This document shows positions 9,324 through 26,975 of a stretch of 64,000 nucleotides of DNA, in pieces (positions within the stretch are counted from its first letter, which is position 1; every line of letters begins with the position of its first letter). A program made the translations under genes and the position numbers. Origin of the DNA: Sphaerisporangium perillae (GTDB lineage: Bacteria > Actinomycetota > Actinomycetes > Streptosporangiales > Streptosporangiaceae). The DNA is taken from the NCBI RefSeq assembly GCF_023276435.1, contig NZ_JALLPO010000011.1:1-64000 (forward strand), in the 5' to 3' direction. Below the pieces are notes generated by a model. That model made no database searches. It was not told the origin of the DNA and saw only the letters and a list, made by a program, of their open reading frames with translations.

Positions 9324-10538
9324 GTGTCCCGTCCTTCCACCCCGTCCGGCACTTCGCGGTCCGTCATCGTCGCCGGGGCGCGCACGCCCATCGGCCGGTT
9401 GCTCGGCTCGCTGTCCGGCCTGTCCGCCGTCGAGCTCGGCGGGCTGGCCATCAAGGCGGCCCTGGAGCGTTCCGGCGTGGCTCCCGAGCAGGTCGAGTAC
9501 GTCATCATGGGGCAGGTCCTGCAGGCGGGCGCCGGCCAGATCCCCTCGCGCCAGGCGGCCGTCAAGGCGGGCATCCCGATGAGCGTGCCGTCGGTGACGA
9601 TCAACAAGGTCTGCCTGTCGGGGCTCGACGCGATCGCCCTGGCCGACCAGCTGATCCGCGCCGGGGAGTTCGACATCGTGGTCGCGGGCGGCATGGAGTC
9701 GATGACCAACGCCCCCCACCTGCTTCCCGGGCTGCGCAAGGGTGTGAAGTACGGCGGGTCCGACATCCTCGACGCGATGGCGTTCGACGGGCTCACGGAC
9801 GTGTTCGACCAGGTGTCGATGGGCGAGTCCACCGAGCGGCACAACACCCGTCTCGGCCTCGGGCGCGAGGAGCAGGACGCCTTCTCCGCCCGCTCCCACC
9901 AGTTCGCCGCGGCCGCCATCAAGGACGGCAGGTTCGACGACGAGATCGTCCCGGTCTCCCTGCCGCAGCGCAAGGGCGACCCGCTGGTCTTCTCCACCGA
10001 CGAGGGCGTCCGCGGCGACACCACCGTGGAGACGCTCGGGCGGCTGCGGCCCGCGTTCGCCAAGGACGGCACGATCACGGCCGGCTCGGCGTCCCAGATC
10101 TCCGACGGCGCCTGCGCGGTCGTGGTGATGTCCCGGGCCAAGGCCGAGGAGCTCGGCCTGACCTGGCTCGCCGAGATCGGCGCCCACGGCAACGTCGCGG
10201 GCCCGGACAACTCGCTGCAGTCGCAGCCGGCCAACGCCATCCGCCACGCCCTCGGCAAGCAGGGGCTCGCCGTGGACGATCTCGACCTGATCGAGATCAA
10301 CGAGGCGTTCGCCGCGGTCGTGCTCCAGTCGGCCAAGGAGCTCGGCGTGCCGGAGGACAAGATCAACGTCAACGGCGGCGGCATCGCCCTCGGTCACCCC
10401 ATCGGCGCCTCGGGCGCGCGCATCGTCCTGACCCTCGCGCACGAGCTCCGCCGCCGTGGCGGCGGCACCGGCGCCGCGGGCCTGTGCGGTGGCGGCGGCC
10501 AGGGCGACGCCCTGATCATCACCGTTCCCGCTTCCTGA
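9324..10538 (+). CDS. Acetyl-CoA C-acetyltransferase (thiolase)
   Basis: A 404-residue biosynthetic-type thiolase that condenses two acetyl-CoA to acetoacetyl-CoA, or runs the reverse step. The nucleophile Cys is in [11 protein letters not shown], the GGMESM loop and NEAFAAV (active-site Asn-Glu-Ala-Phe) are present, and the C-terminal [16 protein letters not shown] (His) and CGGGGQG (Cys) are intact. The GTG at 9324 is preferred since GGAGG lies 5 nt upstream. An ATG at 9312 in the same frame would add four residues but has no ribosome binding site. The gene ends convergently, 22 nt from the flavoenzyme. Confidence 0.93.
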
Positions 10539-10560
10539 CCCGCGGCGCCCGGCCGATCGG

Positions 10561-11817
10561 TCAGCGGGTGGGGTCGAGGTCCCGCAGGGCCAGAGGCTGC
10601 TTGCCCGTGGTGATCTGCTCGGCGAGCATGCGGCCGGTGATCGGCCCGTGGGTGAACCCCCACATGCCGTGCCCTCCGGCGACGTACCTGCCCGGAGCGC
10701 GGGTGGCTCCGATGAGGGGCCGCCCGTCGGGCGTGACCGGGCGCGGCCCGACCCAGGTGTCGGTGCGCTCCTCCCAGGAGACGCCGGCGAGCAGCGGCCG
10801 GGCGGACTCGATGATCGCCTCGACGCGCTTCGGGTACAGGGGGGCGTCGGCGTCGCGGAACTCCATGGTCCCCGCGACGCGCAGCTTGCCCTGGTACGGC
10901 GTGCACGCCACGCGCACGGCCGGCAGGTAGATCGGGCCGGGCACGGGCTGGTCGGTCGGCACGGTGAAGGAGTAGCCACGCCCGGCCTGCACCGGTACGC
11001 GGACGCCCCAGTCCTTGCCGAGCCGGTTCAGCCAGGCGCCGGTGGCCAGGACGACGGCGTCGGCGCTCACGGAGTCGCCCGCGCCCGACCGCACCGTGAG
11101 CCTGCCGGAGGCCTCGTCCACGCCGGTGACGCGGAAGCCGGACCTGATCGTGCCGCCGCGGGCGACGACCGAGTCGGCCAGCGACCTGGTGAACGCGCCG
11201 GGGTCGACGTAACGCTGCCCGTCCAGCCGGACGCCGGCCTTGGCGTGGGCGGAGAGCTGCGGAGCCTGCCGGGCGAGGTCGTCACCTTCGAGCGCGGTGT
11301 ACTCGATGTGCAGCCCGGAGCCGTTGATGCGCTGGAGTTCGTGCAGGAGGCTCACGGCCTGCCGCGGCGTCTCGAACGCGGCCATGATCGGGGCCTCCAC
11401 GGTGGCCGCCTCGACGCCGTTGGAGGTGAGCACGTCGAACGCCTCCAGGCACTCCTCGTTGAAGGGGAGGTTGGCGCGCACCGCGCGGCCCCACGACTTC
11501 CAGCCGCAGTTCAGCGCGAACCTGGTGAGGAAGGACCACAGGCGCACGTCCGGAGTGACCGGCACGTGCAGCGGGGCGGCCGGGTCCATGAGGGAGCGCA
11601 GCCCGTAGCGCAGCACCCCCGGCTCGTTCAGCGGGATGGCGAGCCCGGGGGAGAGCCAGCCCGCGTTGCCCCACGAGGCGCCCGAGGCGACCCCGTCGCG
11701 GTCGACCACGGTGACCTCGACTCCGCGCTCCTGAAGGAACCAGGCGGTGGAGAGTCCCACCACGCCCGCGCCGATGACCACCGCCGTGCGCGGCCCGCCG
11801 TCGATACCCATGACCAC
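10561..11817 (-). CDS. DadA-like FAD-dependent D-amino-acid dehydrogenase
   Basis: A 418-residue DAO-family flavoenzyme. The dinucleotide-binding motif VVIGAGVVGLSTAW is at the N-terminus, followed by DRDGVASGASWGNAGWLSPG, which is typical of DadA-like D-amino-acid dehydrogenases. The C-terminal FAD-contact region reads GPRPVTPDGRPLIG and GHGMWGFTHGP. It probably oxidises D-amino acids or a related secondary amine to the keto acid. The GTG at 11817 sits 4 nt after GGAG; an ATG at 11811 is an alternative. Two TTGTC-GACAA sites just upstream and the adjacent PucR gene, transcribed in the same direction and ending 143 nt upstream, suggest specific induction. Confidence 0.88.
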   Translation of the reverse strand: MVMGIDGGPRTAVVIGAGVVGLSTAWFLQERGVEVTVVDRDGVASGASWGNAGWLSPGLAIPLNEPGVLRYGLRSLMDPAAPLHVPVTPDVRLWSFLTRFALNCGWKSWGRAVRANLPFNEECLEAFDVLTSNGVEAATVEAPIMAAFETPRQAVSLLHELQRINGSGLHIEYTALEGDDLARQAPQLSAHAKAGVRLDGQRYVDPGAFTRSLADSVVARGGTIRSGFRVTGVDEASGRLTVRSGAGDSVSADAVVLATGAWLNRLGKDWGVRVPVQAGRGYSFTVPTDQPVPGPIYLPAVRVACTPYQGKLRVAGTMEFRDADAPLYPKRVEAIIESARPLLAGVSWEERTDTWVGPRPVTPDGRPLIGATRAPGRYVAGGHGMWGFTHGPITGRMLAEQITTGKQPLALRDLDPTR

Positions 11818-11880
11818 ATATCTCCGCTCTGACGTCCTGATACCTGCCCTTCAGCATCACTGGTGCGGCGCCGGAACGGT

Positions 11881-11896
11881 TTGTCCGTTCCGACAA
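11881..11896. promoter_or_regulatory. Candidate PucR operator, copy 1
   Basis: TTGTC and GACAA half-sites are separated by 6 nt, 64 nt upstream of the DadA-like gene. It overlaps a longer perfect inverted repeat with 8-bp arms (CGGAACGG at 11872-11879, CCGTTCCG at 11885-11892). A second copy lies 31 bp away. Confidence 0.5.
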
Positions 11897-11911
11897 GGAC
11901 GAGGGCGGCCG

Positions 11912-11928
11912 TTGTCCGGCGCCGACAA
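11912..11928. promoter_or_regulatory. Candidate PucR operator, copy 2
   Basis: TTGTC and GACAA half-sites separated by 7 nt, sharing the TTGTCCG...CCGACAA pattern with copy 1. The 31-bp offset is about three helical turns, which would place both on one DNA face. Confidence 0.5.
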
Positions 11929-11959
11929 TGCCCGCGCCACGCCCCGGCCTCGCCGAGGA

Positions 11960-13504
11960 TCAGCGCCGCCCGGCCTGCGCGACGGCCAGGGCGATGATCA
12001 TGGCGAGGCGCTTCTCCGGCTCCTCCAGCCGCAGGTCGGTGATCTCGGCCATCTTGCGCAGCCGGTAGCGCACGGTGTTCGGATGGACGTCGAGGCGGCT
12101 CGCGGCCAGCGCCAGGTCGCCCTGGGCCTCCAGCCAGGCGCGCAACGTCGGGATGTAGCGGGTTCCCTGCTCGGCGTCCCGCCGGGTCAGCTCGGCCACC
12201 GGCCCGCGCGCGGGAATGCGTCCCGCCGAGGCCGCCGCCCTGAGGCGTTGCAGCAGGATCTCGTCCCACGACTCGTCGTAGACGACCGGCCGCGCGTCAC
12301 CGGGCGCCGCCGCCCGCAGGGCCAGGCTCTCGTCGGCCTCCTGCCTGCTCGCGGGCAGCTCGGCCGGCCCGGCCACGCCCCCGACGCCGGCGTACACCGT
12401 GACCCCGCGCGGCAGGGCGTTCCCGACCGCGGCGAGCCAGTCGCGGGCAGGCGCGGCGTCGTTGCCGCAGGGCAGGACCGTGTACAGGGTGTTGCCGAAA
12501 AGAGTGCTGCGTCCGGGCCGCGACCAGCCGAAGCCGGTGGTGGCGCGCTCGTAGGCCAGCAGGATCGCGGCGTGCCGCTCCTCGGCGACGTGCGCCTGCA
12601 GGGCGATCACCCGGTACGCGTCGTGGGGCAGCCCGAGCCTGCTGATCAGGGCGGGCGCGTCGGCCGTGCCTTCCAGCAGCCGGATGACCAGGTCGGACTC
12701 CACCTGACGCTCCAGGTCCGCGCCGACCCGGGAACGCAGCAGGTGCAGCGCGACCGCCCGCGCCCCGTCCGCCAGGGCGGTGCGGCGCTCGCCGGACAGC
12801 GGGCGCTCGCACTCCACCCAGATCGACCCGAGCAGTTCGCGTCCGGCGCGCACGGCGACGACCATGCGCCCGCGCAGGCCGTGCGCCGGCGAGGGCTCGA
12901 CGAACAGCGGCTCGTCGGAGGCCGCCAGGTGGGCGAAGACGCCTCGCTGCTGGAACAGCCGGCTCATGCCCTCGGGCACCCGCCGGCCGAGGATCGTCTC
13001 CAGGCGGGCCGGGTCGGCGGCGTGCTGGGAGCCGGAGTAGGCGAGGACGCGCGACATCTGGTCCTCGATCGTCACCGCGTAGCCGAGCGTCCCGGCGAGG
13101 GTGTCGGCGAAGGCGAGCAGGTCGGTCGGCCCTCGCCCCGCCTCGGTCTCGCGGCCTTCGAGCACCAGGCCGTACACCACGCCGAACAGCTGGCTCCAGG
13201 AGACCTCCGGTTCCACCAGCAGCACGGCGATGCCGGCGTCGCGGGCCTCGGCCAGCGCGTCCTCGTCGAGCGGCGGGTTCCCGCGCACCAGCACCGCGGC
13301 GGCGCGCGCCGACCGCGCCAGCCGTACCGCGCCGGCCGCCGAGTCGACTCCGACCGACAGGAAGACATCACCGGTGGCGGGGCGGGTGTCGGTCGGGTCG
13401 TGCACCACCACGCTGCGCAACTCGACCTCGCGCGACGCCGGGGCGCAGCACAGCCGGGCCCCGTAGCCCCCGAGGACGTTCACCAGCCGGTCGAGGTTCA
13501 GCAT
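11960..13504 (-). CDS. PucR/CdaR-type transcriptional regulator
   Basis: A 514-residue regulator with the PucR layout: an N-terminal purine-catabolism-type sensory domain (PATGDVFLSVG, about residues 30-140), a GAF-like/GGDEF-related middle region, and the C-terminal PucR helix-turn-helix (residues ~455-505). The HTH carries the hallmark LALAASRLDVHPNTVRYRLRK. Family members activate catabolic operons in response to amino acids, purines or similar metabolites. It is transcribed toward the DadA-like gene, whose upstream region holds twin inverted repeats, so that gene is its likely target. It is divergent from the IMPase-like gene. The ribosome binding site is weak. Confidence 0.9.
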   Translation of the reverse strand: MLNLDRLVNVLGGYGARLCCAPASREVELRSVVVHDPTDTRPATGDVFLSVGVDSAAGAVRLARSARAAAVLVRGNPPLDEDALAEARDAGIAVLLVEPEVSWSQLFGVVYGLVLEGRETEAGRGPTDLLAFADTLAGTLGYAVTIEDQMSRVLAYSGSQHAADPARLETILGRRVPEGMSRLFQQRGVFAHLAASDEPLFVEPSPAHGLRGRMVVAVRAGRELLGSIWVECERPLSGERRTALADGARAVALHLLRSRVGADLERQVESDLVIRLLEGTADAPALISRLGLPHDAYRVIALQAHVAEERHAAILLAYERATTGFGWSRPGRSTLFGNTLYTVLPCGNDAAPARDWLAAVGNALPRGVTVYAGVGGVAGPAELPASRQEADESLALRAAAPGDARPVVYDESWDEILLQRLRAAASAGRIPARGPVAELTRRDAEQGTRYIPTLRAWLEAQGDLALAASRLDVHPNTVRYRLRKMAEITDLRLEEPEKRLAMIIALAVAQAGRR

Positions 13505-14531: not shown

Positions 14532-16190
14532 TCAGGCCGCTCGGCGGGTGCCGGGGATCGCGGCCAGGAGTTCGCGGGTGTACTCGGCTCCGGGATGCTC
14601 GAAGATCTCGCGCGGCGTGCCGGTCTCCACGATCCGCCCACCCTGCATCACGTGCACGGAGTGCGAGATCATCCGGACGACGGCGAGGTCGTGGCTGATG
14701 AACAGATAGCTGAGACCGAGCTCCCGCTGGAGCTCGGCGAGCAGCTCGAGGATCTGTGCCTGCACGAGCACGTCGAGCGCCGACACGGCCTCGTCGAGCA
14801 CGACGAGCTCGGGTGAGAGCGCGAGTGCTCTCGCGATCGCGACGCGCTGGCGCTGCCCGCCGGACAGCTCGTGCGGCAGCCGTCCGGCCATCGACGAGGG
14901 GAGGTTGACCTGGTCGAGGAGGCGGGCCACGGCCTGCTTGCGGCTCGCCGCCGTGCCGACGCGATGCACGCGCAGCGGTTCGCTGATCGACTTCTCCACC
15001 GTGTAGCGAGGGTCGAGGGACGCGTAGGGGTTCTGGAAGACGGGCTGGACCCGGCGGCGGAACGCGAACAGCTCGCGTCGCCGGAGCGAGGTGAGGTCGG
15101 TGCCGTCGAACAGGATCCGTCCCGAGGTGATGTCGTCGAGGCCGAGCAGCAGGTTCGCGGTCGTCGACTTGCCCGAGCCGGACTCGCCGACGATGGAGAC
15201 GGTCTCGCCGCGCGGAATGCCGAAACTGACCCCGTCGACCGCCGCGAACCGGGTGGGCGCGCCGGTGCCCGCGGCGCGGATCGTGAAGACCTTGCGCAGG
15301 TCCTCGATCCGGACGAGGTCGCCCGCCGGGGCGGGGGGCGGCGTCTCGGTCCGTTCCCGTGCGGTCGTGGCTGGCGCGGTGACCATGCTGGTGGAGGACA
15401 GGCTCGGAACCGCCCTGAGCAGGCGCTGGGTGTACTCGTGCCGTGGACGGGCGAGGATCTCGGCGGCGGCGCCCGCCTCGACGATCTCCCCGTGGTACAT
15501 GACCACGACGGTGTCGGCGCGTTCGGCGGCGAGGGCGAGGTCGTGCGTGATGAGGAACACCGCCGTGCCCATGTCCGTGGTGAGGCTCTCGAGCTGGTCG
15601 AGGATGCGCCGCTGCACGGTGACGTCGAGTGCGGAGGTGGGCTCGTCGGCGATGAGGAGCTTCGGCCGGCAGGCCAGGCCCATGGCGATGAGCGCTCGCT
15701 GGCGCATGCCACCGGAGAACTCGTGCGGGTACTGGTAGGCCCGTCGTGCCGGGTCGGGGATGCCGACCATCTCCAGCAGTTCGACCACCCGTTCGCGGGC
15801 CGCCTTGCCGGTCGCACGGCCGTGGACTTCGAGGGCTTCGGCGATCTGGTCGCTGATGCGCATCAGCGGGTTGAGGTTGGACATCGGATCCTGCGGCACG
15901 AGCCCGATCCCCGCTCCGCGGATCGCGGTCATCTCCCGCTCGCTCGCACGGGCCAGGTCGCGTCCCTCGAAGAGCACCTCGCCGCCCGTGATGCGGCCGG
16001 TCTCGGGCAGGAGCCGGTTGACCGCCGCGGCCGTGGTCGACTTCCCGGAGCCCGACTCGCCGACGACCGCGACGGTCTGGCCGGGCACGATCTCCATCGA
16101 GACGTTCTTCACGACCGTGACGTCCTGGCCGCCCGTGCGGAACGCGACCGACAGGTCACGGAGTTCCAGGAGTGGGGTGGGGGTCGTCAT
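14532..16190 (-). CDS. Fused double ABC ATPase for oligopeptide/muropeptide uptake
   Basis: A 552-residue protein with two complete ABC nucleotide-binding domains in one chain, equal to DppD plus DppF. Each half shows Walker A (GESGSGKSTT), a Q-loop (LVPQDPMSNLNP; PVFQNPYASLDP), a signature (FSGGMRQR; LSGGQRQR) and Walker B (LLIADEPTSALD; LVVLDEAVSALD). It powers import with the two permeases and lipoprotein encoded upstream in the same operon. The ATG at 16190 is used because GAGG precedes it and the domain starts at once. It is last in the operon, separated from the serine hydrolase by 2 nt. Linkage to murQ/anmK points to muropeptides or amino sugars as cargo. Confidence 0.93.
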   Translation of the reverse strand: MTTPTPLLELRDLSVAFRTGGQDVTVVKNVSMEIVPGQTVAVVGESGSGKSTTAAAVNRLLPETGRITGGEVLFEGRDLARASEREMTAIRGAGIGLVPQDPMSNLNPLMRISDQIAEALEVHGRATGKAARERVVELLEMVGIPDPARRAYQYPHEFSGGMRQRALIAMGLACRPKLLIADEPTSALDVTVQRRILDQLESLTTDMGTAVFLITHDLALAAERADTVVVMYHGEIVEAGAAAEILARPRHEYTQRLLRAVPSLSSTSMVTAPATTARERTETPPPAPAGDLVRIEDLRKVFTIRAAGTGAPTRFAAVDGVSFGIPRGETVSIVGESGSGKSTTANLLLGLDDITSGRILFDGTDLTSLRRRELFAFRRRVQPVFQNPYASLDPRYTVEKSISEPLRVHRVGTAASRKQAVARLLDQVNLPSSMAGRLPHELSGGQRQRVAIARALALSPELVVLDEAVSALDVLVQAQILELLAELQRELGLSYLFISHDLAVVRMISHSVHVMQGGRIVETGTPREIFEHPGAEYTRELLAAIPGTRRAA

Positions 16191-16192
16191 GG

Positions 16193-17368
16193 TCACCTCG
16201 GTCGTTGCGTGAAGGGGACGGGTGGGGCGGGGACGGCCGTCAGCAGCTCGTGCCAGAGCGCCTCCCCGGGTACGGGGGTGCCTTCGACCAGCAGGCGGTT
16301 GCTGGCGAGGGCGAGGGCGACATCCCGGTCCGGCACGAAGCCGACGGCGCATCCGACATGACCGGGGTGACCGAGCACGGTGAGGGTCTCGCCGGGAAGT
16401 TCCAGCCGGTACCTGCGGAAACCGAGCGCCTGCCCCTCGTCGGGGCCCGGCGCGAAGAACTCCCGCGCGACCTGCGGCCGGATGAGGGTGTCGTGCTCCC
16501 GGTAGCGGGAGAGCGCGGTCGCGAAGCGCAGCAGGTCGGGGACCGTCGAGAAGAGCCCGGCGTGGCCGGAGATCCCGCCGAAGGCGTGGTAGGCGTTGCC
16601 GTCGGCGACCTGCCCGTGCACGGGCTCGCGGCGCCAGCCTGCGAAGTCGCCGCTGCGGTAGGGCACGGGGTACGGCTGGCCCGAGTCGAGCATGGCGATC
16701 TCGATCCGGTCGTCACGCGCCCCCGTCGCCACGGGGTCCCCCGCCGGTGCCGCGTACCGGGTCGCGCCGAGGCCGAGCGGCTCGGTCACGAGATCGGACA
16801 CCGCCTGTTCGAGGCTGAGGCCGGTGACGGAGGCGATGACCCGCCCGAGCAAGATGAAACCGAGGTCGGAGTAGTGACGCTCCTCGCGCGGCCGGTATCG
16901 CAGGGGCAGCTCTTCGACGAAACGGTGCGCCTCCTCCGGGCTGCCGGCCGGGATGTAGAGCGGATGCCACTCCCACAGCCCGCCGCGGTGCAGGAGCAGG
17001 TCGCGTACGGTGACGCCGTCCCGCCCGCCGCCGCGGAAGCCGGGAAGGTGGCGGCGCACCTCCGTGTCGAGGTCGACGAGCCGGTCGGAGACGAGGCGCA
17101 TGAGCGCGGTCGTGGTGCCGAGGACCTTGGTGACGGAGGCGAGGTCGTGGTACGTGCCGATCGTCATGGGCTCTTCGCCCACGCGCACGCCGTCCTCCCA
17201 GCGGACGGTGCGGTGGCCGGCGCACGCGGCCACGTCGAACCACGGGGTCCGGGCGGCCAGGGCGACGCCGGGCGGCGGCCGCATGCCGTCCGTGGAGCCC
17301 GGCGGGGTGCCGGGCCCGTGGGGGACGGCCGAGACGAGGCGTTCCGCGGTCGCGGCGAGGGCGTTCAT
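16193..17368 (-). CDS. Serine hydrolase, beta-lactamase/DD-peptidase fold
   Basis: A 391-residue class C beta-lactamase-like (serine beta-lactamase/penicillin-binding) hydrolase. The SxxK motif is SVTK (Ser78, Lys81). YSDLG stands where the Tyr-x-Asn motif is expected, and a late HPGHVG replaces the KTG-type motif. No signal peptide is seen, so the enzyme is probably cytoplasmic. Relatives cleave D-amino-acid peptides or esters. Its position between anmK (13 nt gap) and the transporter ATPase (2 nt) suggests it trims peptide or lactyl-linked groups from imported muropeptides. That role is inferred. GGAG lies 9 nt before the ATG. Confidence 0.85.
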   Translation of the reverse strand: MNALAATAERLVSAVPHGPGTPPGSTDGMRPPPGVALAARTPWFDVAACAGHRTVRWEDGVRVGEEPMTIGTYHDLASVTKVLGTTTALMRLVSDRLVDLDTEVRRHLPGFRGGGRDGVTVRDLLLHRGGLWEWHPLYIPAGSPEEAHRFVEELPLRYRPREERHYSDLGFILLGRVIASVTGLSLEQAVSDLVTEPLGLGATRYAAPAGDPVATGARDDRIEIAMLDSGQPYPVPYRSGDFAGWRREPVHGQVADGNAYHAFGGISGHAGLFSTVPDLLRFATALSRYREHDTLIRPQVAREFFAPGPDEGQALGFRRYRLELPGETLTVLGHPGHVGCAVGFVPDRDVALALASNRLLVEGTPVPGEALWHELLTAVPAPPVPFTQRPR

Positions 17369-17381
17369 CGGTGACGCTCCT

Positions 17382-18572
17382 TCACGTCCGCGCCGGATGC
17401 GAATCCCGCCCGGTGAGGGTGAGCGCGCGGGGAGCCTCGGTGGCAGGGGAGGGCAGGACGAGCGGTCCCGCTCCGGGCGTGAGGGTGCCGAGGACGCGGG
17501 CGGCCCGGGCCCCCGTGCCCGCCGGCACGGTTCCCGGCAGGCCGTGCGCGGTGTACCAGCCGATGAGGGCGAAGGCGATCGCCTCCTTGTCGTCGGCGGG
17601 AGCGCCGTAGGCGTCGGAGAGCGCGATGGTCACGCCGGGAAGGGCGCGGCGCAGCCCGTCCATCAGTACGGGGTTGCGGCACCCGCCACCGGAGGCGACC
17701 AGGAGGTCCACGCCGCTCGCCGTCACATCCCTCGCGACCGTGCGCACGGTGAGCTCGGTGAGCGTCGCCACGAGGTCGGCCGCGGCGGGCCGGCTGCCGG
17801 CCTTGGCCATCGCGTCCTCGACGTAGGCCAGGTGGAAGAGCTCCTTGCCCGTGCTCTTCGGGGCGGGCCACCGGTAGTAGGGGTCGTCGAGCAGAACCTC
17901 CAGAAGGCGCTCGTCGACCGTTCCGGAGGCGGCGATCCGCCCGTCCTCGTCGAATCCGCGCTCGCTGAGCCCGTCGCGCACCACGACGGCGTCGATGAGC
18001 GCGTTCGCCGGCCCGATGTCGTAGGCGACCAGGTCGTCCACGCCCCGCACCAGGGTCATGTTGGCGATGCCGCCCAGGTTGAGCGCGGCGGCGGTGCCCT
18101 CGTGGCCGGCGAGGAGGAGGGCGTCGAGCAGGGAGACCAGGGGAGCGCCCTGGCCACCGGCCGTGATGTCGCGGATGCGCACGTCGGACAGCACGGGCGC
18201 GCCTGTGCGCTCGGCGATCCAGGCGGGCTGGCCGATCTGCAAGGTGCCGCGGGCGTGCCCGCCGTCGACCCAGTGGAACACGGTCTGACCGTGCGAGACG
18301 ATGAGGTCGACCGCACCGGCTTCCGCGATCGCCGCGGCGGCGGCCTCGGCGAAGCCCTGGCCGATGAGGGTGTCGAGCTCGCACACCTCGGCGAGGGTCG
18401 TCGCCGCCGGCGGGAGCGCTTCGATGAGGCGGGCGCGGAGCTCGGCCGGGTAGGGCGTGCTCGCCGTGTACTCGACCACCCCGCTGAGCGTGCCGTCGGC
18501 GCCGTGGAAGTCGACCAGGGCCGCGTCGATTCCATCGTGCGAGGTGCCGGAGATCATTCCGAGGATTCTCAT
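17382..18572 (-). CDS. anmK: Anhydro-N-acetylmuramic acid kinase
   Basis: A 396-residue ASKHA-fold kinase. AnmK opens the 1,6-anhydro ring of anhMurNAc and phosphorylates it to MurNAc-6-phosphate, the MurQ substrate. Family motifs are clear: [16 protein letters not shown] near the N-terminus (GTSMDG in most relatives), [19 protein letters not shown], a [10 protein letters not shown] segment and a glycine-rich CRNPVL region. Its start overlaps the murQ stop by 4 nt (ATGA), so the two are translationally coupled. Their products catalyse consecutive steps. Members normally act on cell-wall turnover products made by lytic transglycosylases. Confidence 0.95.
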
Positions 18573-19492
18573 GATTGTTCTCCGAGTGCGACCCGGAGCC
18601 GGCCGCTGCTCTCGACGAGGCGTGCCACGGCCTCCTGCGGGGTCAGGCCGAGCCGGAAGGCCACGATCGCCTGTTTCACGTTGTAGTCATTTCTGTCGAG
18701 GGCCGTGATCGCCTCGTCCCGTCGGGCGCCGGTGATCGTGCGCATGATGCGGATCGCCCGCTCGCGCAGCTTGTCGTTGGTGGCCTTGACGTCGACCATC
18801 AGGCTGCCGTACGTCTTGCCGAGCTGCACCATGACGATCGTCGAGAACATGTTGAGGACGAGCTTCTGCGCGGTGCCGGCCTTGAGCCGGGTGGAGCCGC
18901 TCACGACCTCCGGTCCCACGATCACCTCGATCGCGTGCTCGGCCACCTCGCTCAGCGGGCTGCCGGTGTTGCACGAGAGTCCCACGGTGAACGCCCCGCG
19001 CTCCCGCGCCCGCCGGATCGCCGAGAGGACGAACGGGGTCCGTCCGCTGGAGGTGATGCCGACCACGGTGTCGAGCGATCCGATGGCGGCGGCTTCGATC
19101 GCCGCGACCGCGGCGTCGGTGTCGTCTTCGGCCCCCTCGCACGGGGAGACGATCGCGCTCCGGCCTCCCGCGATGATCCCGAAGACCAGCTCCGGCGGGG
19201 TGCCGTAGGTGGGAGGGCACTCCGAGGCGTCGAGCACTCCGAGGCGTCCGGGGGTTCCCGCGCCGACGTAGACGAGGCGTCCGCCGGCCTTCATGTGTTC
19301 CGCCGCCGTCTCGATCGCGCTCGTGATCTGGGGGAGCGCCCGGGCGACCGCGCCGGGCACCGTGGTGTCGGCCTCGTTCATGGCCGCCGCGAGCTCGGCC
19401 ACCGTCATTTTGTCGATTTCCGCGTACCGGGGGTCGGTGGCCTCTGTCGTGAGATCGCCGAGCCGGGCGGATTCGGAGGAGTTGACGCTCAA
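18569..19492 (-). CDS. murQ: N-acetylmuramic acid 6-phosphate etherase
   Basis: A 307-residue SIS-domain etherase that splits MurNAc-6-phosphate into GlcNAc-6-phosphate and D-lactate. Signatures are [15 protein letters not shown] at the N-terminus, [22 protein letters not shown] (residues 76-97), CEGAEDD with conserved acids, and SSGRTPFVL. The usual GAGTSGRLG is GAGTPGRLG here, with Pro81 in place of Ser. The TTG start at 19492 overlaps the dppC-like stop (TTGA) and is preceded by GAGGAAAG. The D-lactate product is the likely substrate of the FeS dehydrogenase encoded at 24177-26975. Confidence 0.96.
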
Positions 19493-20376
19493 CGCTTTCC
19501 TCGGTTTCTCGGATCGAGAGTGTCACGCAGGCCGTCGCCGAGGAGGTTGAGCCCGGCCACGAGCAGCACGACGACGACTCCGGGCGCGATCATCGTCCAC
19601 GGAGCGATGGAGACCAGGGTGCGCGCCTCGAAGATCATCGACCCGAGCGAGGGCGAGGGCGGAGGTGTGCCCAGACCGAGGAAGCTCAGTGATGCCTCTG
19701 TGAGGACCGCCCAGGACAGGGACAAGGCCACCTGGATGATGATGATCGAGGTGATGTTCGGCAGCACGTGCCGCATCATGATCATCCATTGGCTCTGACC
19801 GGTGCTCGTGGCCGCCTTCACATACTCGATCTCCCGCAGCGAGAGAACGGGGCCGCGGGTGACGCGGATGAAGATGGGCACGTAGACGATCGCGATCGCG
19901 ACGGCGACCGTGAACCAGTTCCGGTCGAACACCGACGCGAGCGATAGGGCCAGCAGCAGAGGGGGGAAGGCGAACAGCACGTTCGTCACTCCGCCGATGA
20001 CGCCGTCGGCGAAGCCGCGGTAGAAGCCGGCGACGAGCCCGCCCATGGTGCCGATGACCGCGGAGAAGGCCACGGCGACGACCGAGATGAGCGCCGAGCC
20101 GGCGACGCCGGCCGCGACGCGGGAGAAGATGTCACGGCCGAACTGGTCGGTGCCGAGCAGATGCCCGGCCGAGGGAGGCAGGAGCCGCGCGGGCGGATTC
20201 TGGGCGATCGGGTCGTACGGGAGCACATGGAAGAAGGACGAGAGCGAGACGATCGCCAGCACCACGATGATGATGAGGCCGGTGAGGCCGCTCGGGCTCC
20301 TCAGCAGGCTCCGGAGACGGTGGCCGCCCTTGCGGGTGCCCGGCGGCAGCTGAGCGGTCCGCGCGATATCGGTCAT
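19489..20376 (-). CDS. ABC transporter permease, DppC type
   Basis: A 295-residue inner-membrane permease of the oligopeptide (DppC/OppC) class. A first hydrophobic helix lies at residues ~35-57, followed by the periplasmic LLGTDQFGRDIFSRVAAG motif of DppC proteins. A five-helix BPD_transp_1 domain comes next, with an EAA-like loop at YVKAATSTGQSQWMIMMRHVLPN. The ATG at 20376 overlaps the upstream permease stop by 4 nt, and its own stop overlaps the murQ start. The operon therefore couples import to etherase synthesis. Confidence 0.94.
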   Translation of the reverse strand: MTDIARTAQLPPGTRKGGHRLRSLLRSPSGLTGLIIIVVLAIVSLSSFFHVLPYDPIAQNPPARLLPPSAGHLLGTDQFGRDIFSRVAAGVAGSALISVVAVAFSAVIGTMGGLVAGFYRGFADGVIGGVTNVLFAFPPLLLALSLASVFDRNWFTVAVAIAIVYVPIFIRVTRGPVLSLREIEYVKAATSTGQSQWMIMMRHVLPNITSIIIIQVALSLSWAVLTEASLSFLGLGTPPPSPSLGSMIFEARTLVSIAPWTMIAPGVVVVLLVAGLNLLGDGLRDTLDPRNRGKR

Positions 20377-21344
20377 GAGGCCCGCACCCGGGGGTCGATG
20401 ACGCGGTAGAGAAGGTCGGTCAGGAGATTGACGATGACGAACGTCAGCGCGATGACCAGAACCGTGCTCTGAACGACCGCGTACTCCTTCTGCTGGATCC
20501 CGAGCAGTACCTGCCGCCCGATGCCGGGGACCGAGAAGATCTGCTCGACGACGACGGCGCCGCCCAGGAGGTAGCCGAACTGCAGGCCGGTCATCGTGAC
20601 GATCGGCACGAGCGCGTTGCCGAGAACGTGCTTGGTCTGAAGGCGGCGCGCCGGGACGCCCTTGGCGCGTGCGGTGCGGACGAAGTCGTCCGAGCGGATC
20701 TCCAGAACGGCGGTCCGCGTGGTGCGCAGGATGGGCGCCGCGATGCCGAATCCGAGCACGATCGCGGGCATGAGCATCTGCCGCAGGTTGAGCAGGGGAT
20801 CCCCGGCGAGGGTGGCGTAGCCCTGGCCGTTCGGGTTGAAGCCGAACGATGACGCGAAGACCGAGAGCAGGGTCGTCGCGAGAAGGAAGGCCGGGACCGA
20901 GAGGCCGGCGAGGCTGACGAACTGGCCGAAGGCGTCCCTGCCGGAGTCGGGCTTCGAGGCCGCGAGCATGCCGAGCGGGATGCCGATCAGCAGGGCGAGG
21001 ATGATCGAGAGCACGGCCAGCTCGAAGGTGACCGGCAACGACCGCAGGGTGAGGTCGAGCACGCTCTGCTGGGCACGCGCGGAGTAGCCGAGGTTGCCGG
21101 TGAAGAGGTTGCCCAGCCAGGAGAAGAACTGCGTGAACAGCGGCTGGTCGAGACCGTAGTAGCGCTGCAGGGCCTCCTGCTGGGCGGGGGAGAGCGCCGC
21201 GGCCTCCGTGCCGAGTCCCGCCGTGATCTGGTCGCCGGGAATCGCCCGGAGCATGATGAACACGAAGACGGCCACGCCGAGGAGTGTGCCGATCATGCTC
21301 GCCACGCGCCGCACGATGCGGTTGTGGATGAGTTTTCGCAGCAT
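20373..21344 (-). CDS. ABC transporter permease, DppB type
   Basis: A 323-residue permease partner of the DppC-like protein. It has six predicted helices, an N-terminal signal-anchor helix, the DppB-type RYYGLDQPLFTQFFSWL segment, and an EAA loop (VRTARAKGVPARRLQTKHVLGNALVP). The ATG at 21344 is chosen over an in-frame codon 33 nt upstream because GAGGA precedes it and the protein then begins MLRKLIHNRIVRR, like relatives. It lies 60 nt after the solute-binding-protein gene. Confidence 0.94.
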   Translation of the reverse strand: MLRKLIHNRIVRRVASMIGTLLGVAVFVFIMLRAIPGDQITAGLGTEAAALSPAQQEALQRYYGLDQPLFTQFFSWLGNLFTGNLGYSARAQQSVLDLTLRSLPVTFELAVLSIILALLIGIPLGMLAASKPDSGRDAFGQFVSLAGLSVPAFLLATTLLSVFASSFGFNPNGQGYATLAGDPLLNLRQMLMPAIVLGFGIAAPILRTTRTAVLEIRSDDFVRTARAKGVPARRLQTKHVLGNALVPIVTMTGLQFGYLLGGAVVVEQIFSVPGIGRQVLLGIQQKEYAVVQSTVLVIALTFVIVNLLTDLLYRVIDPRVRAS

Positions 21345-21404
21345 ATGCCTGGGTCCTCGCCCCTGGTGGGGTGCCATGGAGGCGGCACCCCACGAGGAAG
21401 GCGG

Positions 21405-22964
21405 CTAGTTGACGGCCGTGGTGCGCAGGTACTGGAGCGAGGCGTTCGCCATCGGGATGAAGCCCTGTACCTGGGATGTGGTCGCGGTGTAGGCGTAGCT
21501 CGTGAACAGCCAGATCCATGGCGCGTTGTTCTCGAGCTCCACGGACACCTTGTCGTAGATCGCCTTGCGCTCGTGCTGGTCGGTCGACGCCTTGCCGGCG
21601 GCGAAGAGCTTGTCGAGCTCGGGCGAGCTGTAGCCGGTGACCTTGTTGAGGTTGCCGGTGCTGGTGAAGTAGCGGTTGTACATGCCGTCGGGGTCGGGGC
21701 GTCCGCCGTTCAGGGCGACGGCCGCGTCGAAGTCGCCGGCGACCCAGCGGTCGACGTACGCGCCGGACTCCAGCACCTCGAGATCGAGGTTGATCTTGGC
21801 TTCGGCCAGTTGCGCCTTGAGGCTCTGGGCCTCGTTGACCGATGTCGAGTACTCGCCCTGGGAGACGATCGTCTTGATCTTCACTCCGGCGCTCTTCCCG
21901 GCCTTGCCGAGGTACTCGGCGGCCTTGGCGAGATCGCGCGCCGGGCACGGACGCTGGTCGGGGTTGGACTTGAAGGCCGGCGCCGTGATCGGACCGGTCA
22001 CCGTGCCCTCGCCCAGGGCGGCGGTGTCGAGCACCTGCTTGCGGTCGATCGCGCACTGGACGGCGAGGCGCACGTTGAGGTCGGTGAGATCGCCGCGACG
22101 CCCGTTGAGCTGGAGGACGTGATAGCTCAGCTGCGGGGTCTTGGCGACGTTGAGCTGCGCCGCCGCCGCGGTCTTGGCCACGAGCGGGTCGTCGAAGACC
22201 GCGAGCTGCACGTTGCCGGACTGCATCGCGGAGACGATGGAGGACTCGTCCGGGATCACCCGGAACTCGATGCTGCCGAGCTTCGGCTTGTCGCCCCAGT
22301 ATTTGTCGTTCTTGACGAGGGTGAGCGACTGGCTGGCGACCCGGTTCTTCAGGACGAACGGCCCGGTGCCGTCGGGGGTCGTGTTGAGCGACGCCTCGGT
22401 GTCGTCCGAGGAGAGCATGGCCATGTTGACCACGGCGAGGTTGGAGGGCAGGGCGGCATCCGGCGCGCTGAGGTGCAGCACCACGGTCTGCGGGTCAGGC
22501 GCGTCGACGGAGGTCACCGAGGCGAGCGAGGCGGCGGCCACGGCCGCCGTGGCCTCGTCCTTGATCTTGTCCAGAGAGTACTTGACGTCCTTGGAGTCGA
22601 AGGCGCTGCCGTCACTGAAGGTGACGCCGTCACGAAGAGTGAAGTTCAGCGTGCGGCCGTCCTTCGACGTCTCCCATGACTTGGCGAGCCCCGGCACGGT
22701 GTTCAGGTCCTTGTCGAACTCGGTGAGGGTGCCATAGATGTTCTGCAGCACGTTCACCGCCTGGAACTGCGTGGCCTTCCAGGGGAAGAGCGTGTCAGGG
22801 TCGGACGTGACGCCCACGACGAGCGCGCCGCCGGTTCCACCCGAGGCGCCGGGCTTGGGCGCCTGCGTGGCGGGTGACGAGCAGCCGGTCAGCACGGAGG
22901 ACGCGGCTGTGGCGACCCCGATCGCCAAGAGCGCGCCACGGGTCAATCGTGATCTCTGCCACAT
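21405..22964 (-). CDS. Solute-binding lipoprotein of the peptide/muropeptide ABC importer
   Basis: A 519-residue extracytoplasmic binding protein of SBP family 5 (DppA/OppA/NikA type). The signal peptide ends in a lipobox, VLTGC, with Cys28 the lipidated residue. A Ser/Gly/Pro linker follows. Family landmarks are PGLAKSWETSKDGRTLNFTLRDGVTFSDG and a late WIWLFTSYAYT. It is the first gene of the minus-strand operon and has AGGAG 6 nt before the ATG. Ligand is not readable from sequence; the murQ/anmK linkage suggests muropeptide or MurNAc-containing fragments. Expression is probably controlled at the inverted repeat 23054-23090. Confidence 0.93.
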   Translation of the reverse strand: MWQRSRLTRGALLAIGVATAASSVLTGCSSPATQAPKPGASGGTGGALVVGVTSDPDTLFPWKATQFQAVNVLQNIYGTLTEFDKDLNTVPGLAKSWETSKDGRTLNFTLRDGVTFSDGSAFDSKDVKYSLDKIKDEATAAVAAASLASVTSVDAPDPQTVVLHLSAPDAALPSNLAVVNMAMLSSDDTEASLNTTPDGTGPFVLKNRVASQSLTLVKNDKYWGDKPKLGSIEFRVIPDESSIVSAMQSGNVQLAVFDDPLVAKTAAAAQLNVAKTPQLSYHVLQLNGRRGDLTDLNVRLAVQCAIDRKQVLDTAALGEGTVTGPITAPAFKSNPDQRPCPARDLAKAAEYLGKAGKSAGVKIKTIVSQGEYSTSVNEAQSLKAQLAEAKINLDLEVLESGAYVDRWVAGDFDAAVALNGGRPDPDGMYNRYFTSTGNLNKVTGYSSPELDKLFAAGKASTDQHERKAIYDKVSVELENNAPWIWLFTSYAYTATTSQVQGFIPMANASLQYLRTTAVN

Positions 22965-23053
22965 ACGGTCTCCTCAGTGACATTCGATGCTGCGCTGCCG
23001 GCGCGCTGACCCGCGCGGTCACCCAGGGAAGCATCCGTAGTCCAAGTTGGGCA

Positions 23054-23090
23054 TAAAAGTACACGTGTTGGCCTGTTTTGTGTAATTTTA
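23054..23090. promoter_or_regulatory. Candidate RpiR/MurR operator in the divergent promoter
   Basis: Arms TAAAAGTACAC (23054-23064) and GTGTAATTTTA (23080-23090) match as an inverted repeat at 10 of 11 positions across a 15-nt spacer. A perfect ACACGTGT palindrome overlaps the left arm (23061-23068). The site is unusually A/T-rich for this genome and sits between the divergent operon start and the rpiR-like gene, where a MurR-type repressor would bind. Confidence 0.65.
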
Positions 23091-23131
23091 TTTCCGGGAG
23101 GACCGGAGAACACTCGATCGAGGGAGTGGAG

Positions 23132-24037
23132 ATGAGTGCAGGCGGGGCCGGTCTCACGGAGGCCGGAGCGGTACTGGTACGGATCCGGGCGGCCTTACCC
23201 GGTCTACGCCCATCAGAGAAGCGCCTCGCGCAGGTCTTCCTCGACGATCCGGCGGCGGCGGCCAACCTGTCGATCGCGGAGCTCGCCTCCCAGTGCGGCA
23301 CCTCGACCACCTCGGTGGTGCGCTTCTACCAGCGCATGGGCTACGCCCACTACAAGGACTTCCGGATCGACCTGACCCGGGAGGTGACGCGGGAAGAGCT
23401 CACGACGGCGAACATCTCCGAGATGTCCGGCGACATCGACCGCGACGACACGCTCGACGAGATCGTGGCCAAGGTCGCGATGAACGAGACGCTGTCCATC
23501 GCCGACACCGCCCGCACACTCGACACCGGAGCGCTCAGCCGCGCCGTCGCGCTCGTGCTCTCCGCCCGCCGCCTCGACAGCTTCGGCGTCGGCGCGAGCT
23601 CCTTCGTCGGGCTCGACCTCCAGCAGAAGCTCACGCGCATCGGCCGTACCGCCATCAACTGGCGTGACTCGCACTCGGCCTGGACCTCCGCGGCCACCCT
23701 GGACGACCAGTGCGTCGCCATGGCCATCTCGCACACCGGCGCCACGGTCGACACCGTCGAGTTCCTCGCGATCGCCCGCAGAGCCGGCGCCGCGACGATC
23801 GCCATCACCAACTTCCGCGAGTCGCCGCTCGCGGCCACGGCCGACGTCGTGCTGACCACCGCCGCCCGGGAGACCCGATTCCGCTCCGGGGCCCTGGGAA
23901 GCCGCATCGCCCAGCTCATGGTCGTGGACTGCCTGTTCACGGGGGTCGCTCAGGCCTCCTACGATGAATCGATGGAGGCGCTGCGCAGCACCTACACCAT
24001 CGTGCACGATCGCGACGCCCAAAGGCGCGCCCGATGA
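23132..24037 (+). CDS. RpiR/MurR-family transcriptional regulator
   Basis: A 301-residue regulator with an N-terminal HTH_6 domain (LSIAELASQCGTSTTSVVRF, about residues 50-70) and a C-terminal SIS sugar-phosphate-binding domain (FGVGASSFVGLDLQQKL; AISHTGATVDTVEFLA). E. coli MurR, of this family, represses murQP and is released by MurNAc-6-phosphate. Divergence from the murQ operon with a strong palindrome between them makes the same role likely here. The ATG at 23132 follows AGGGAGTGGAG. An upstream in-frame start at 23078 lies inside the operator and is rejected. Its stop region is copied several times downstream. Confidence 0.92.
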   Translation: MSAGGAGLTEAGAVLVRIRAALPGLRPSEKRLAQVFLDDPAAAANLSIAELASQCGTSTTSVVRFYQRMGYAHYKDFRIDLTREVTREELTTANISEMSGDIDRDDTLDEIVAKVAMNETLSIADTARTLDTGALSRAVALVLSARRLDSFGVGASSFVGLDLQQKLTRIGRTAINWRDSHSAWTSAATLDDQCVAMAISHTGATVDTVEFLAIARRAGAATIAITNFRESPLAATADVVLTTAARETRFRSGALGSRIAQLMVVDCLFTGVAQASYDESMEALRSTYTIVHDRDAQRRAR

Positions 24038-24120
24038 GTGCCAGGGCCCGAGGGGCGCGCAGAGCCCGATGGGTGCAAGTGAGGGCAAGAGCCCGATGAG
24101 TGCGAGAGCCCGATGAGTCG
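24029..24120. repeat. Degenerate repeats derived from the rpiR stop region
   Basis: The 13-mer GCCCGATGAGTGC, which includes the rpiR-like stop codon (from 24029), recurs nearly intact within units beginning at 24061, 24088 and 24105 (AGAGCCCGATGRGTGC). Further decayed forms continue to about 24176. The 139-nt gap before the dehydrogenase gene is made largely of these copies. Confidence 0.7.
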
Positions 24121-24176
24121 AGAGCTTGGCGTGTCCGATGGCCCGCTGAGCCCATGAGCCGAATGAGCCGAGCCAG

Positions 24177-26973
24177 ATGAGACAGACGCGGCGGGACGAT
24201 GCCGTGCCCACCAGTTCCCGGTCGATGGACCGGCTGGCGATGGCCCATGACGCCTCGCACTATCTCCTCGTGCCGGAGTCCGTCGCCACGCCCCGGCGGG
24301 CCGAGGACCTCGCGCGCCTCTTCCGTGACAGCAGGACGCGGGGCGTGCCACTGACCTTCCGCTCCGGCGGCACGAGTCTCAGCGGCCAGGGTGTCACGAG
24401 CGGCGTCCTGGCCGACACGCGCCGGAACTTCCAGCGGATCGACGTGCTCGACGACGGCGCGCGAGTACGGGTGGAACCCGGCGTGACGATGCGCCAGGTC
24501 AACACCCGTCTCACCCGGTACGGACGCAAGCTGGGCCCGGACCCGGCCAGCGAGGTCGCCTGCACCGTCGGCGGTGTCGTCGCCAACAACTCGAGCGGCA
24601 TGGCCTGCGGCACGGAGCACAACACCTATCGCACGCTCGACTCGCTGGTGATCGTGCTGCCGAGCGGGACGATCGTCGACACCGCCGCGCCCGATGCCGA
24701 TGATCGGCTGCGGCACGTCGAACCGGAGCTCTGGCACGGGCTCACCCGCCTGCGCGACCGCGTACGCGGCAATCCGGAGTCGGTCCGTACGATCCGCCGG
24801 CAGTTCGCCATGAAGAACACCATGGGGTACGGCGTCAACTCCTTCCTCGACTTCGACCGGCCGGTGGACATCCTCGCCCACCTGATCGTGGGGAGCGAGG
24901 GCACGCTCGCCTTCATCGCCGAGGCCACCTTCCGCACCGTTCCGGCCCTTCCCGCGGCGGCGACAGGTCTGGCGATCTTCCCGAGCCTGAGCGCCGCGAC
25001 CGCGGCGCTCCCCGAGATGGTGGGCGCGGGCCTCGCGACGATCGAGCTGATGGACGCGACCTCGCTCACCGTCGCGCAGGGCTCCGAGCGGAGCACGCCG
25101 GAGCTGTCGGCGCTCCAGGTCGACGGTCACGCCGCCTTCCTCATCGAGTACCTCGGGGAGACGGCCGAGGACGTCGCGAGGCTGCGCGCGGCCGGCGCGG
25201 AACTGCTCGGCTCGCTCGAGGTCGTCTCGCCGGTGTCGCTCACCCAGGACGCCCGTGAGCGGGCGGCCCTGTGGAGCATCCGCAAGGGCCTCTACACCTC
25301 CGTCGCCGGCGCCCGCCCCTCGGGAACGACGGCGTTGCTCGAGGACGTCGTGGTGCCGGTGCCCCTGCTGCTCGGCACCTGCGAAAGCCTCCTTGAGCTG
25401 TTCGAACGGCACCGCTACGAGCAGAGCGTGATCTTCGGGCACGCGAAGGACGGCAACGTCCACTTCCTGCTGAACGAGCGCTTCGAGGATCCTGCCGGCC
25501 TCGACCGCTATCAGCGCTTCACCGAGGACATGGTCGACGTCGTGCTCGGCAACGGCGGGTCGCTCAAGGCCGAGCACGGCACCGGGCGGATCATGGCGCC
25601 GTTCGTGCGCCGCCAGTACGGGGACGAGCTCTACGAGGTCATGCGCGAGATCAAGCGGCTCTGCGACCCCGACGGCATCCTCAACCCGGGCGCGGTGCTC
25701 TCCGACGATCCCGCCTCCTACGTACGTGATCTCAAAAGCGTGCCCACGGTCGAGCCCGAGGTGGACCGATGTGTCGAGTGCGGCTACTGCGAGCCGTCGT
25801 GCCCCTCGAAGAACGTGACCTTGACGCCGCGGCAGCGCATCGTGCTCAGGCGGGAGATGCGGAGCGCGGAAGCGACGGGCGATGAGGCGCTGCTCGCCGA
25901 GCTGCGGGCCGACTACGCCTACGAGGGCGTCGACACCTGCGCCGCCGACGGCATGTGCCAGGTCGCGTGCCCGGTCCAGATCAACACCGGCGACCTGGTA
26001 CGGCGGCTGCGTGCCGAGAACGCGGGCGCCGTCGAGCAGTCGATGGGGAACGTCGCCGCGAAACACTGGGGTGCCGTCGCCCGGGCCGCGGGCGTCGCGC
26101 TGTCGGCCGCCGACGTCCTTCCCTCCCCGGCCGTCACGGCGGTGACGCGTCTCGGGCGGGCGGCGCTCGGCGCCGACACCGTGCCGCTCTACGACGAAAG
26201 GCTCCCCCGGGGCGGCGCGCGACGTCGTCCGCTCGTCGCGGAGGAGCCCGAAGCCGTCTACTTCCCGGCGTGCATCGGCACGATATTCGGAGCGGCCGGG
26301 GGCGGAGCGGGCGTCTCCTCCGCCTTCCTCGCGCTGTGCGAGCGCGCCGGCGTCGCGGTGACCGTTCCCGACGGCATCGCGTCGTTCTGCTGCGGGACTC
26401 CGTGGAAGTCCAAGGGGCTCACCCGGGGCTACGACCGGATGACGCGGATCGTGCTCCCGGCGCTGTGGGAGGCCTCGCGCGGTGGTGCGCTGCCGATCGT
26501 GTGCGACGCGGCCTCCTGCACCGAGGGGCTCGACACGATGCGGCAGGCCGCAGGCCGTGCGGGCGGTGACCACGCCTCGCTTCGCTTCGTCGACGCGATC
26601 GAGTTCGTGCACGGCCGCGTGCTCCCCGGGCTGACGGTGACGGCTCCGCTGTCGTCGATCGCCGTGCACCACACCTGCTCTTCCACCCAGCTCGGTACCA
26701 ACGCCATGATGACCGCGATCGCCGAACACATCGCGGGGGAGGTGCTGGTTCCCCTCGACTGGGGGTGCTGTGGCTTCGCCGGTGACCGGGGACTGCTCCA
26801 TCCCGAGCTCACCGCCTCGGCGACCGAGCGGGAGGCGGCGGAGGTGAAGGCCGGGGAGTTCCAGGCGTACGCCTCGGCGAACCGGACCTGCGAGCTCGGC
26901 ATGAGCATGGCGACGGGCCGCGACTACCAGCACCTGCTGGAACTCCTCGAACGCGCCACCCGCCCGGTCGTCT

Positions 26974-26975
<2 letters not shown>
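24177..26975 (+). CDS. FAD/4Fe-4S D-lactate dehydrogenase (Dld-like, fused)
   Basis: A 932-residue fusion of an FAD-linked oxidase (FAD_binding_4 with FRSGGTSLSGQGVT; FAD-oxidase_C with IFGHAKDGNVHF and EHGTGR) to a ferredoxin-like region (Cys532-x2-Cys-x2-Cys-x3-CysPro, then CAADGMCQVACPVQINTG near residue 587). Two CCG domains follow (FCCGTPWKSKG near 738, WGCCGFAGDRG near 864). This is the layout of bacterial quinone- or cytochrome-linked D-lactate and D-2-hydroxyacid dehydrogenases. It likely oxidises the D-lactate released by MurQ to pyruvate. The gene lies downstream of the rpiR-like regulator on the same strand. The ribosome binding site is poor, and its stop codon abuts a marR remnant. 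Confidence 0.88.

Follow-up and report, generated by a model that had tools for sequence, protein, structure and literature searches.

What becomes of the D-lactate that is set free when MurQ acts on the sugars of the bacterial cell wall? Its fate is usually left to general metabolism, and the question is raised anew by a locus of Sphaerisporangium perillae, found in a stretch of 64,000 nucleotides (positions 1 to 64,000 of contig NZ_JALLPO010000011.1, hereafter the window) from a genome of 9.3 Mb in 120 contigs. On the minus strand, an operon at 14532-22964 encodes a family-5 solute-binding lipoprotein, two permeases, the N-acetylmuramic acid (MurNAc) 6-phosphate etherase MurQ, the anhydro-MurNAc kinase AnmK, a serine hydrolase and a fused ATP-binding cassette (ABC) ATPase, while the genes for a regulator of the RpiR family and for a FAD/4Fe-4S/CCG dehydrogenase of 932 aa follow one another on the plus strand, divergent from the operon; every gene that the original prediction had named is present at its place and on its strand. 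We read the locus as an accessory cluster for the catabolism of peptidoglycan fragments through import, AnmK, MurQ and D-lactate oxidation, with a probability of roughly 80%. The chemistry of AnmK and MurQ is established for their families, and for the other steps we infer that (anhydro)MurNAc-peptides enter through an ABC importer of Dpp type that depends on the lipoprotein, that a cytosolic serine hydrolase of beta-lactamase fold probably strips the peptide from the sugar, that the dehydrogenase turns D-lactate into pyruvate with its electrons probably passing to the respiratory chain, and that an RpiR repressor works at a single dyad of the shared divergent promoter. To call this path complete and self-contained, as had been done, is an overstatement, as no NagA, NagB or NagZ is encoded within the locus and import is a prediction.

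The dehydrogenase (24177-26975, plus strand) combines FAD_binding_4, FAD-oxidase_C, Fer4_8 (4Fe-4S) and CCG domains in one chain, the last with 25.1 bits against a gathering score of 20.6, and thereby has a Dld-II-like architecture. By sequence, the closest solved chains are those named D-lactate dehydrogenase (113 bits), followed by a glycolate oxidase (95) and LctD (81); the solved chain used in the alignment appears to be mouse LDHD, judging from matching residue numbers. Residue numbers of the reference enzymes are those of PMC10589216 and PMC7801405 (papers cited by such numbers are drawn on as excerpts throughout), and conservation was counted over 51 rows including the window. R369, H422, H429, E466 and H467 align with Arg347, His398, His405, Glu442 and His443 of mouse LDHD and are invariant in 51/51 rows; in the mouse enzyme the Arg binds the carboxylate, three of the residues ligate the metal and one His is catalytic (PMC10589216). 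Equally, 15 cysteines of the iron-sulfur (FeS)/CCG part are kept in every row. At residue 591, an Asp replaces the second Cys of the second FeS cluster motif (CxxDxxCxxxC), again in 51/51 rows.

Subsite B of the enzyme carries Tyr373 for Trp351, Ala386 for Ala363, Leu388 for Ser365 and Leu431 for Ile407 of LDHD. Throughout the 51 rows, the place of D2HGDH Thr390 is taken by Tyr (Tyr373 in the window) and that of the GlcD Tyr (Ala363 in LDHD, Ala386 in the window) by Ala, while Met (41 rows), Leu (9, including Leu431 of the window) or Thr (1) occupies the place of D2HGDH Asn443; no Lys is found at places 385-388 near D2HGDH Lys401, human D2HGDH itself lying outside the alignment. A pocket of this kind fits a small hydrophobic side group, e.g. 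the methyl of D-lactate. Glycolate and D-2-hydroxyglutarate were rejected as substrates, because the equivalog cut-offs were missed both for GlcD (glycolate oxidase; TIGR00387, 182.1 vs 567.9 bits) and for YdiJ (D-2-hydroxyglutarate dehydrogenase; NF049975, 162.5 vs 1350 bits) and the compared pocket residues differ. D-lactate oxidation is the likely role of the dehydrogenase. The same missed cut-offs and the absence of D2HGDH and GlcD pocket residues at the places compared argue against a general D-2-hydroxyacid enzyme (for D-2-hydroxyglutarate or glycolate) that adjoins the operon by chance, an explanation that we hold to be improbable.

The recurrence of the pairing in several lineages speaks against such chance adjacency as well. 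We called a pair linked when a dehydrogenase (E <= 1e-100) and a murQ (E <= 1e-40) lay within 10 kb of each other, with distances read from listings, so that pairs split over short contigs would escape. In Micrococcaceae, to which Paenarthrobacter belongs, 88 of 197 genomes have the dehydrogenase, 41 murQ and 25 both, and the pair is linked in 6/25 (the index loci of genomes G223 and G225, plus G436 with a split copy, G350, G421 and G279; G-numbers denote genomes and L-numbers loci). In the window's class (296 genomes: 61 with the dehydrogenase, 106 with murQ, 46 with both), linkage is seen in 6/46, namely in the window, G489, G683, G647, G509 and G616. Leaving the index loci aside, 4/23 genomes have a linked pair in Micrococcaceae against 0.13 expected (Poisson p 1e-5) and 5/45 in the class against 0.18 expected (Poisson p 1e-6), both under uniform placement and with kinship ignored. 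The genome-neighbourhood search that had been proposed as a check yields pairs well above the uniform-placement estimate, and the suspected D-lactate-type dehydrogenase is found beside murQ repeatedly, with active-site residues that suit this role.

Within actinobacteria, the pair occurs in five importer settings. A Dpp-type ABC importer accompanies it in the window, Sphaerisporangium rufum (L056), Psychromicrobium xiongbiense (L120) and G683 (L200). The second setting features an MFS metabolite/H+ symporter: Paenarthrobacter nitroguajacolicus (L143) has MurQ, dehydrogenase, NagB, MFS and AnmK genes with a divergent RpiR, Arthrobacter sp. B2a2-09 (L136) has the same five genes and no RpiR match, and L192 (G436) combines MFS, AnmK, RpiR and MurQ with a dehydrogenase broken into two frames. 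A sodium symporter (SSS; family tested on L193) defines the third, with AnmK, SSS, MurQ, dehydrogenase, NagB, GntR and a NagA-like gene in L193, AnmK, MurQ, dehydrogenase and NagB in L194, and AnmK, an SSS-like gene, MurQ and dehydrogenase in L201. In the fourth, a MurP-like phosphotransferase system (PTS) is present (L199 of G489: RpiR, dehydrogenase, MurQ and an EIIBC scoring 342.5 bits vs the MurP cut-off of 516), and in the fifth, a sugar ABC system (L203), a carbohydrate binding protein (below equivalog cut-offs) and a permease-like gene are encoded between MurQ and the dehydrogenase. The spacing of L203 is repeated in L202; L195 is looser, its dehydrogenase lying 7.5 kb from murQ, and this pairing may be due to chance. 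In L150, MurQ is followed by a more distant FAD-type protein (28%, ended by the contig edge). Recurrence beside such different importers suggests that the dehydrogenase is a working part of the pathway rather than a chance neighbour. In the genome of L192, a full-length homologue lies about 31 kb from the split murQ-linked dehydrogenase (10042-12917).

The operon itself recurs in other genera. An AnmK-alignment search of GTDB species genomes gave 574 confirmed stretches, the best 80 of which were kept and scanned with the window proteins; a MurQ homologue was found in 41 of these 80 loci, and the solute-binding protein, the permease PermB and MurQ together in 26, for example in Microbacterium, Nonomuraea, Jiangella, Cellulomonas and Psychromicrobium. 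Since these three accompany AnmK so often, the gene set is not a chance assembly; the 26 ABC-type loci also include an RpiR homologue in 20 cases and the serine hydrolase in 23. A close dehydrogenase homologue is encoded in 2/26 other ABC-type loci and in 4/41 murQ-bearing AnmK loci, and the dehydrogenase is an optional add-on.

Several observations weigh against a dedicated D-lactate enzyme. For 24/26 other ABC-type loci, the fetched sequence holds no close homologue of the dehydrogenase, although two of these sequences end before the expected place. In the window's own family, the dehydrogenase is found in 30/200 genomes and stands beside this operon only in the window and G003, and in G010, which belongs to the same genus and also has this operon, the homologue sits on another contig. 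For 28 of the 30 family matches, no murQ lies in the fetched stretches (four of them < 17 kb), which favours the general D-2-hydroxyacid enzyme mentioned above, as does an FAA-hydrolase-family gene (family tested on L073) in 7/28 of these murQ-less loci, some of which also hold IlvD-, SMP-30- and IclR-like genes (labels by eye); such neighbours speak for a wider 2-hydroxyacid role. In addition, an NCBIfam scan found no equivalog model that names the window dehydrogenase, and a Dld-II relative in Campylobacter has been reported as an L-lactate enzyme (PMC4117512). The dehydrogenase homologues with FAA-hydrolase-family genes are those of L073, L078, L079, L086, L091, L097 and L100. These loci perhaps encode a sugar-acid pathway yielding a 2-hydroxyacid and pyruvate.

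The history of the pairing was followed in a tree of 51 dehydrogenases, 13 of them murQ-linked, which was built with a quick method, holds three long end branches (L098, L199 and L200) and leaves out the split dehydrogenase of L192 and the partial one of L100 (538 aa). The linked dehydrogenases require six label changes, at least four of them forced by starred branches, while shuffled labels average 11.7. A single clade of murQ-linked dehydrogenases was rejected (approximately unbiased test, p 1.6e-34). Because of these label changes and the rejected clade, the joining of murQ and dehydrogenase is concluded to have been gained, or lost, more than once, as read from this tree. The window and S. 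rufum enzymes group with support 99; next by path come the linked Psychromicrobium and Arthrobacter enzymes and then unlinked ones from Microbacterium, at weaker forks, and the forks that place the window in a wider group with Micrococcaceae rows are weak too. Most dehydrogenase copies of the window's own family lie elsewhere in the tree. It is an evenly balanced proposition that lactyl oxidation in Actinobacteria is a re-assembled module of MurNAc catabolism: Dld-II-like dehydrogenases would have joined murQ several times, with importers of five or more kinds, and the ABC version would import intact anhydro-muropeptides whose sugar is freed by a cytosolic serine amidase of beta-lactamase fold instead of AmpD.

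We were curious to know whether a single regulator might serve both divergent units, as the original prediction had it. The regulator (23132-24037, plus strand) contains HTH_6 and SIS domains and shares 31% identity with E. coli MurR; its assignment to the RpiR family holds, whereas the MurR part of the proposed RpiR/MurR type is overstated, the score against the MurR equivalog NF012026 being 123.4 vs 408 bits. Its start is most likely ATG 23132 rather than the listed TTG 23078, since the latter falls inside a dyad and a GGAG precedes the former. This operator-like dyad, AAAGTACAC-N15-GTGTAATTT, lies at 23056-23088 between the operon and the regulator gene, and a search of the 9.3-Mb genome gave a single match to the pattern AAAGTACAC N13-16 GTGTA and none to its backward control. 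The two relatives in the genus that proved to have the locus, S. rufum and G010, keep the dyad with 0 mismatches (either right-arm form allowed), and Psychromicrobium keeps it with 2. In 12 of 19 divergent regions it scores 0-4 mismatches (0 in the window and L052, 2 in L120, 3 in L102 and L111, 4 in seven others), and L056, scored apart, has 0, compared with 5 or 6 for the best of 50 shuffles per region. Moreover, in S. rufum and Psychromicrobium the open reading frames (ORFs) listed for RpiR and the dehydrogenase share 4 nt, so that one promoter could serve both genes.

We surmise that the operon and the dehydrogenase are co-regulated through the RpiR protein at this putative operator, the one dyad of their shared divergent promoter. 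Three points weaken this view: the dyad is not apparent in 7/19 regions (score 5 in L134 and L200, 7-9 in L110, L115, L116, L126 and L127), it was spotted in the alignment and scored afterwards, i.e. post hoc, and in the window 139 bp separate the regulator from the dehydrogenase. Part of this gap is filled by a degenerate 17-18-bp tandem repeat (GCCCGATGAGTGCGAGA) at 24029-24171, running from the RpiR end towards the dehydrogenase. An earlier dyad search with spacers <= 12 gave a Microbacterium-type repeat instead and was set aside, and a 9-base dyad search found none in L143 and an unrelated one in L136. Upstream of the L199 dehydrogenase, there is a near-palindrome, AATTTACGC-N13-GCGTAATTT.

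With regard to the cargo, MurQ (18569-19492, minus strand; 49% identical to the E. coli enzyme) exceeds the TIGR00274 equivalog cut-off (364.7 bits vs 302) and AnmK (17382-18572, minus strand) that of NF007146 (559.9 vs 440). AnmK needs the anhydro form of MurNAc, and its presence in an operon with no PTS gene or MurNAc kinase points to anhydro-MurNAc compounds as the probable cargo. The original argument from AnmK is retained, whereas its other half, ABC import instead of a PTS, does not decide the matter, because E. coli MurP is annotated as an anhydro-MurNAc transporter and a MurP-like PTS accompanies the pair in L199. The importer consists of the lipoprotein (21405-22964; SBP_bac_5, PF00496, 285 bits vs a gathering score of 32.4; lipobox-like LTGC in the translation), the DppB/OppB-like PermB (20373-21344; PF00528 and BPD_transp_1_N, with ATG 21344 as the presumed start), the DppC/OppC-like PermC (19489-20373; PF00528) and a DppD/DppF-like ATPase (14532-16190), all on the minus strand. 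Two fused nucleotide-binding domains (ABC_tran, PF00005, twice in one chain) and oligo_HPY are found in the ATPase, which passes broad dipeptide and nickel models and most likely starts at ATG 16190, 2 nt past the hydrolase gene, rather than at the ORF start 16352. PermB and PermC overlap by 1 nt, and AnmK and the hydrolase are separated by 13 nt.

These components are of a general Dpp/Nik/Gsi kind, none naming a cargo, and would suit an operon that imports free peptides or another compound, with MurQ and AnmK recycling the cell's own wall and the dehydrogenase serving external lactate. The genome indeed has a second murQ (L053, contig 26, 16119-16985) beside another Opp-type ABC set, which recurs in the same-genus loci L054, L055 and L057-L063; no anmK or dehydrogenase is present in the 19.9 kb read around it. 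Nevertheless, we consider free-peptide import unlikely: murQ overlaps the PermC gene (19489-19492) and anmK (18569-18572) by 4 nt each, as the original prediction had pointed out for several genes; the gene set is kept in 26 of the best 80 AnmK loci, and homologues of an L200 gene of the enolase superfamily, nearest to N-acetyl-D-Glu racemase and L-Ala-D/L-Glu epimerase though below their cut-offs, occur in 11 of them. An L-Ala-D-Glu epimerase would fit the peptide-bearing cargo of the preferred muropeptide pathway. Homologues of a GNAT gene of L120 are found in 18/80. Since the genome has the second murQ and only G003 and G010 among ten same-genus relatives examined carry a window-type locus, this locus looks like an accessory one.

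Other candidate importers emerged from the same 80 loci. In 22 of them, including L136, L139, L141, L143 and L181, the position directly upstream of AnmK is taken by an L143-type MFS metabolite/H+ symporter, a candidate (anhydro)MurNAc permease; a sodium:solute symporter homologue takes this place in L155, L164, L169 and L174, all from Nocardia. Near the operon, an FAD oxidoreductase of the DAO family (10561-11817) and a regulator of PucR type (11960-13504) could serve wall D-amino acids, and a large serine recombinase at the window edge (143-1765) may mark an integrated element.

The serine hydrolase (16193-17368, minus strand; PF00144, 171.7 bits) aligns with E. coli PBP4B over 326 columns at 29% identity, and we lean towards a cytosolic amidase that would act after import. 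The PBP4B equivalog NF002968 is its nearest NCBIfam model, with 96 bits well below the cut-off of 385, and the beta-lactamase fold covers many activities, both of which leave room for a DD-carboxypeptidase, an esterase or an exported enzyme; this we regard as possible, if rather doubtful. By hydropathy alone, the N-terminus of the hydrolase (0.99) differs from the signal-like one of PBP4B (1.81) and from that of the lipoprotein (2.06), MurQ and AnmK lying at about 0.6, and 14/15 orthologues reach at most 1.56, the exception being L108 with 1.9 from its most upstream candidate start (start sites are uncertain). AmiE of B. subtilis presumably has a fold of the beta-lactamase type. An amidase would also have a precedent in AmiE, which belongs to the B. 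subtilis murQ locus (PMC5061867).

If this reading of the locus is true, a dedicated and apparently co-regulated D-lactate dehydrogenase lets these actinobacteria recover the lactyl carbon and electrons as well when using cell-wall sugar, and a widespread group of FAD/FeS dehydrogenases without an equivalog name gains a testable substrate, with murQ linkage as its marker. The locus further suggests that a serine amidase may take the role of AmpD, and several importers become candidates for anhydroMurNAc uptake.

Release of D-lactate by the MurQ etherase has been stated for the E. coli enzyme and its Gram-positive orthologues (PMC5061867), and the known murQ loci resemble that of the window in part. 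The E. coli murQ-murP-yfeW genes with divergent murR likewise unite MurQ, a divergent RpiR-family regulator and a PBP4B-like hydrolase, but have a PTS instead of an ABC importer, a hydrolase with a signal-like N-terminus, and no anmK or D-lactate dehydrogenase annotated in the 15-kb stretch. B. subtilis murQ-murR-murP-amiE-nagZ-ybbC shares MurQ, a MurR-like regulator and a muropeptide-cleaving amidase, yet relies on a PTS and extracellular muropeptide degradation, and its gene list, as excerpted, names no AnmK or lactate dehydrogenase (PMC5061867). S. coelicolor SCO4305-4308 offers an actinobacterial MurQ with a MurR-like regulator; as described in that excerpt, the cluster has no AnmK or lactate dehydrogenase, SCO4305 and SCO4306 are of unknown function and a MurP ortholog is missing (PMC5061867). 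The Dld-II enzymes of Shewanella and H. pylori (HP1222), likened here by description and not by sequence, share the C-terminal 4Fe-4S part that classic Dld lacks, and an HP1222 mutant fails on D-lactate; HP1222 differs in its apparently constitutive expression, and the excerpt describes no murQ link (PMC4117512). M. bovis BCG and M. tuberculosis, which unlike the window have no MurQ ortholog, apparently draw carbon from the lactyl part of MurNAc, and for BCG the authors favour L-lactate (PMC6572805); engineered C. glutamicum growing on MurNAc had 3.1 mM lactate in its medium between two growth phases (PMC6165865). A literature search at the level of titles and abstracts found none that places a lactate dehydrogenase in a murQ operon. 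Each enzyme family is already known, and what is new here is the match of catalytic residues, the recurrent pairing with murQ and the dyad in the divergent promoter.

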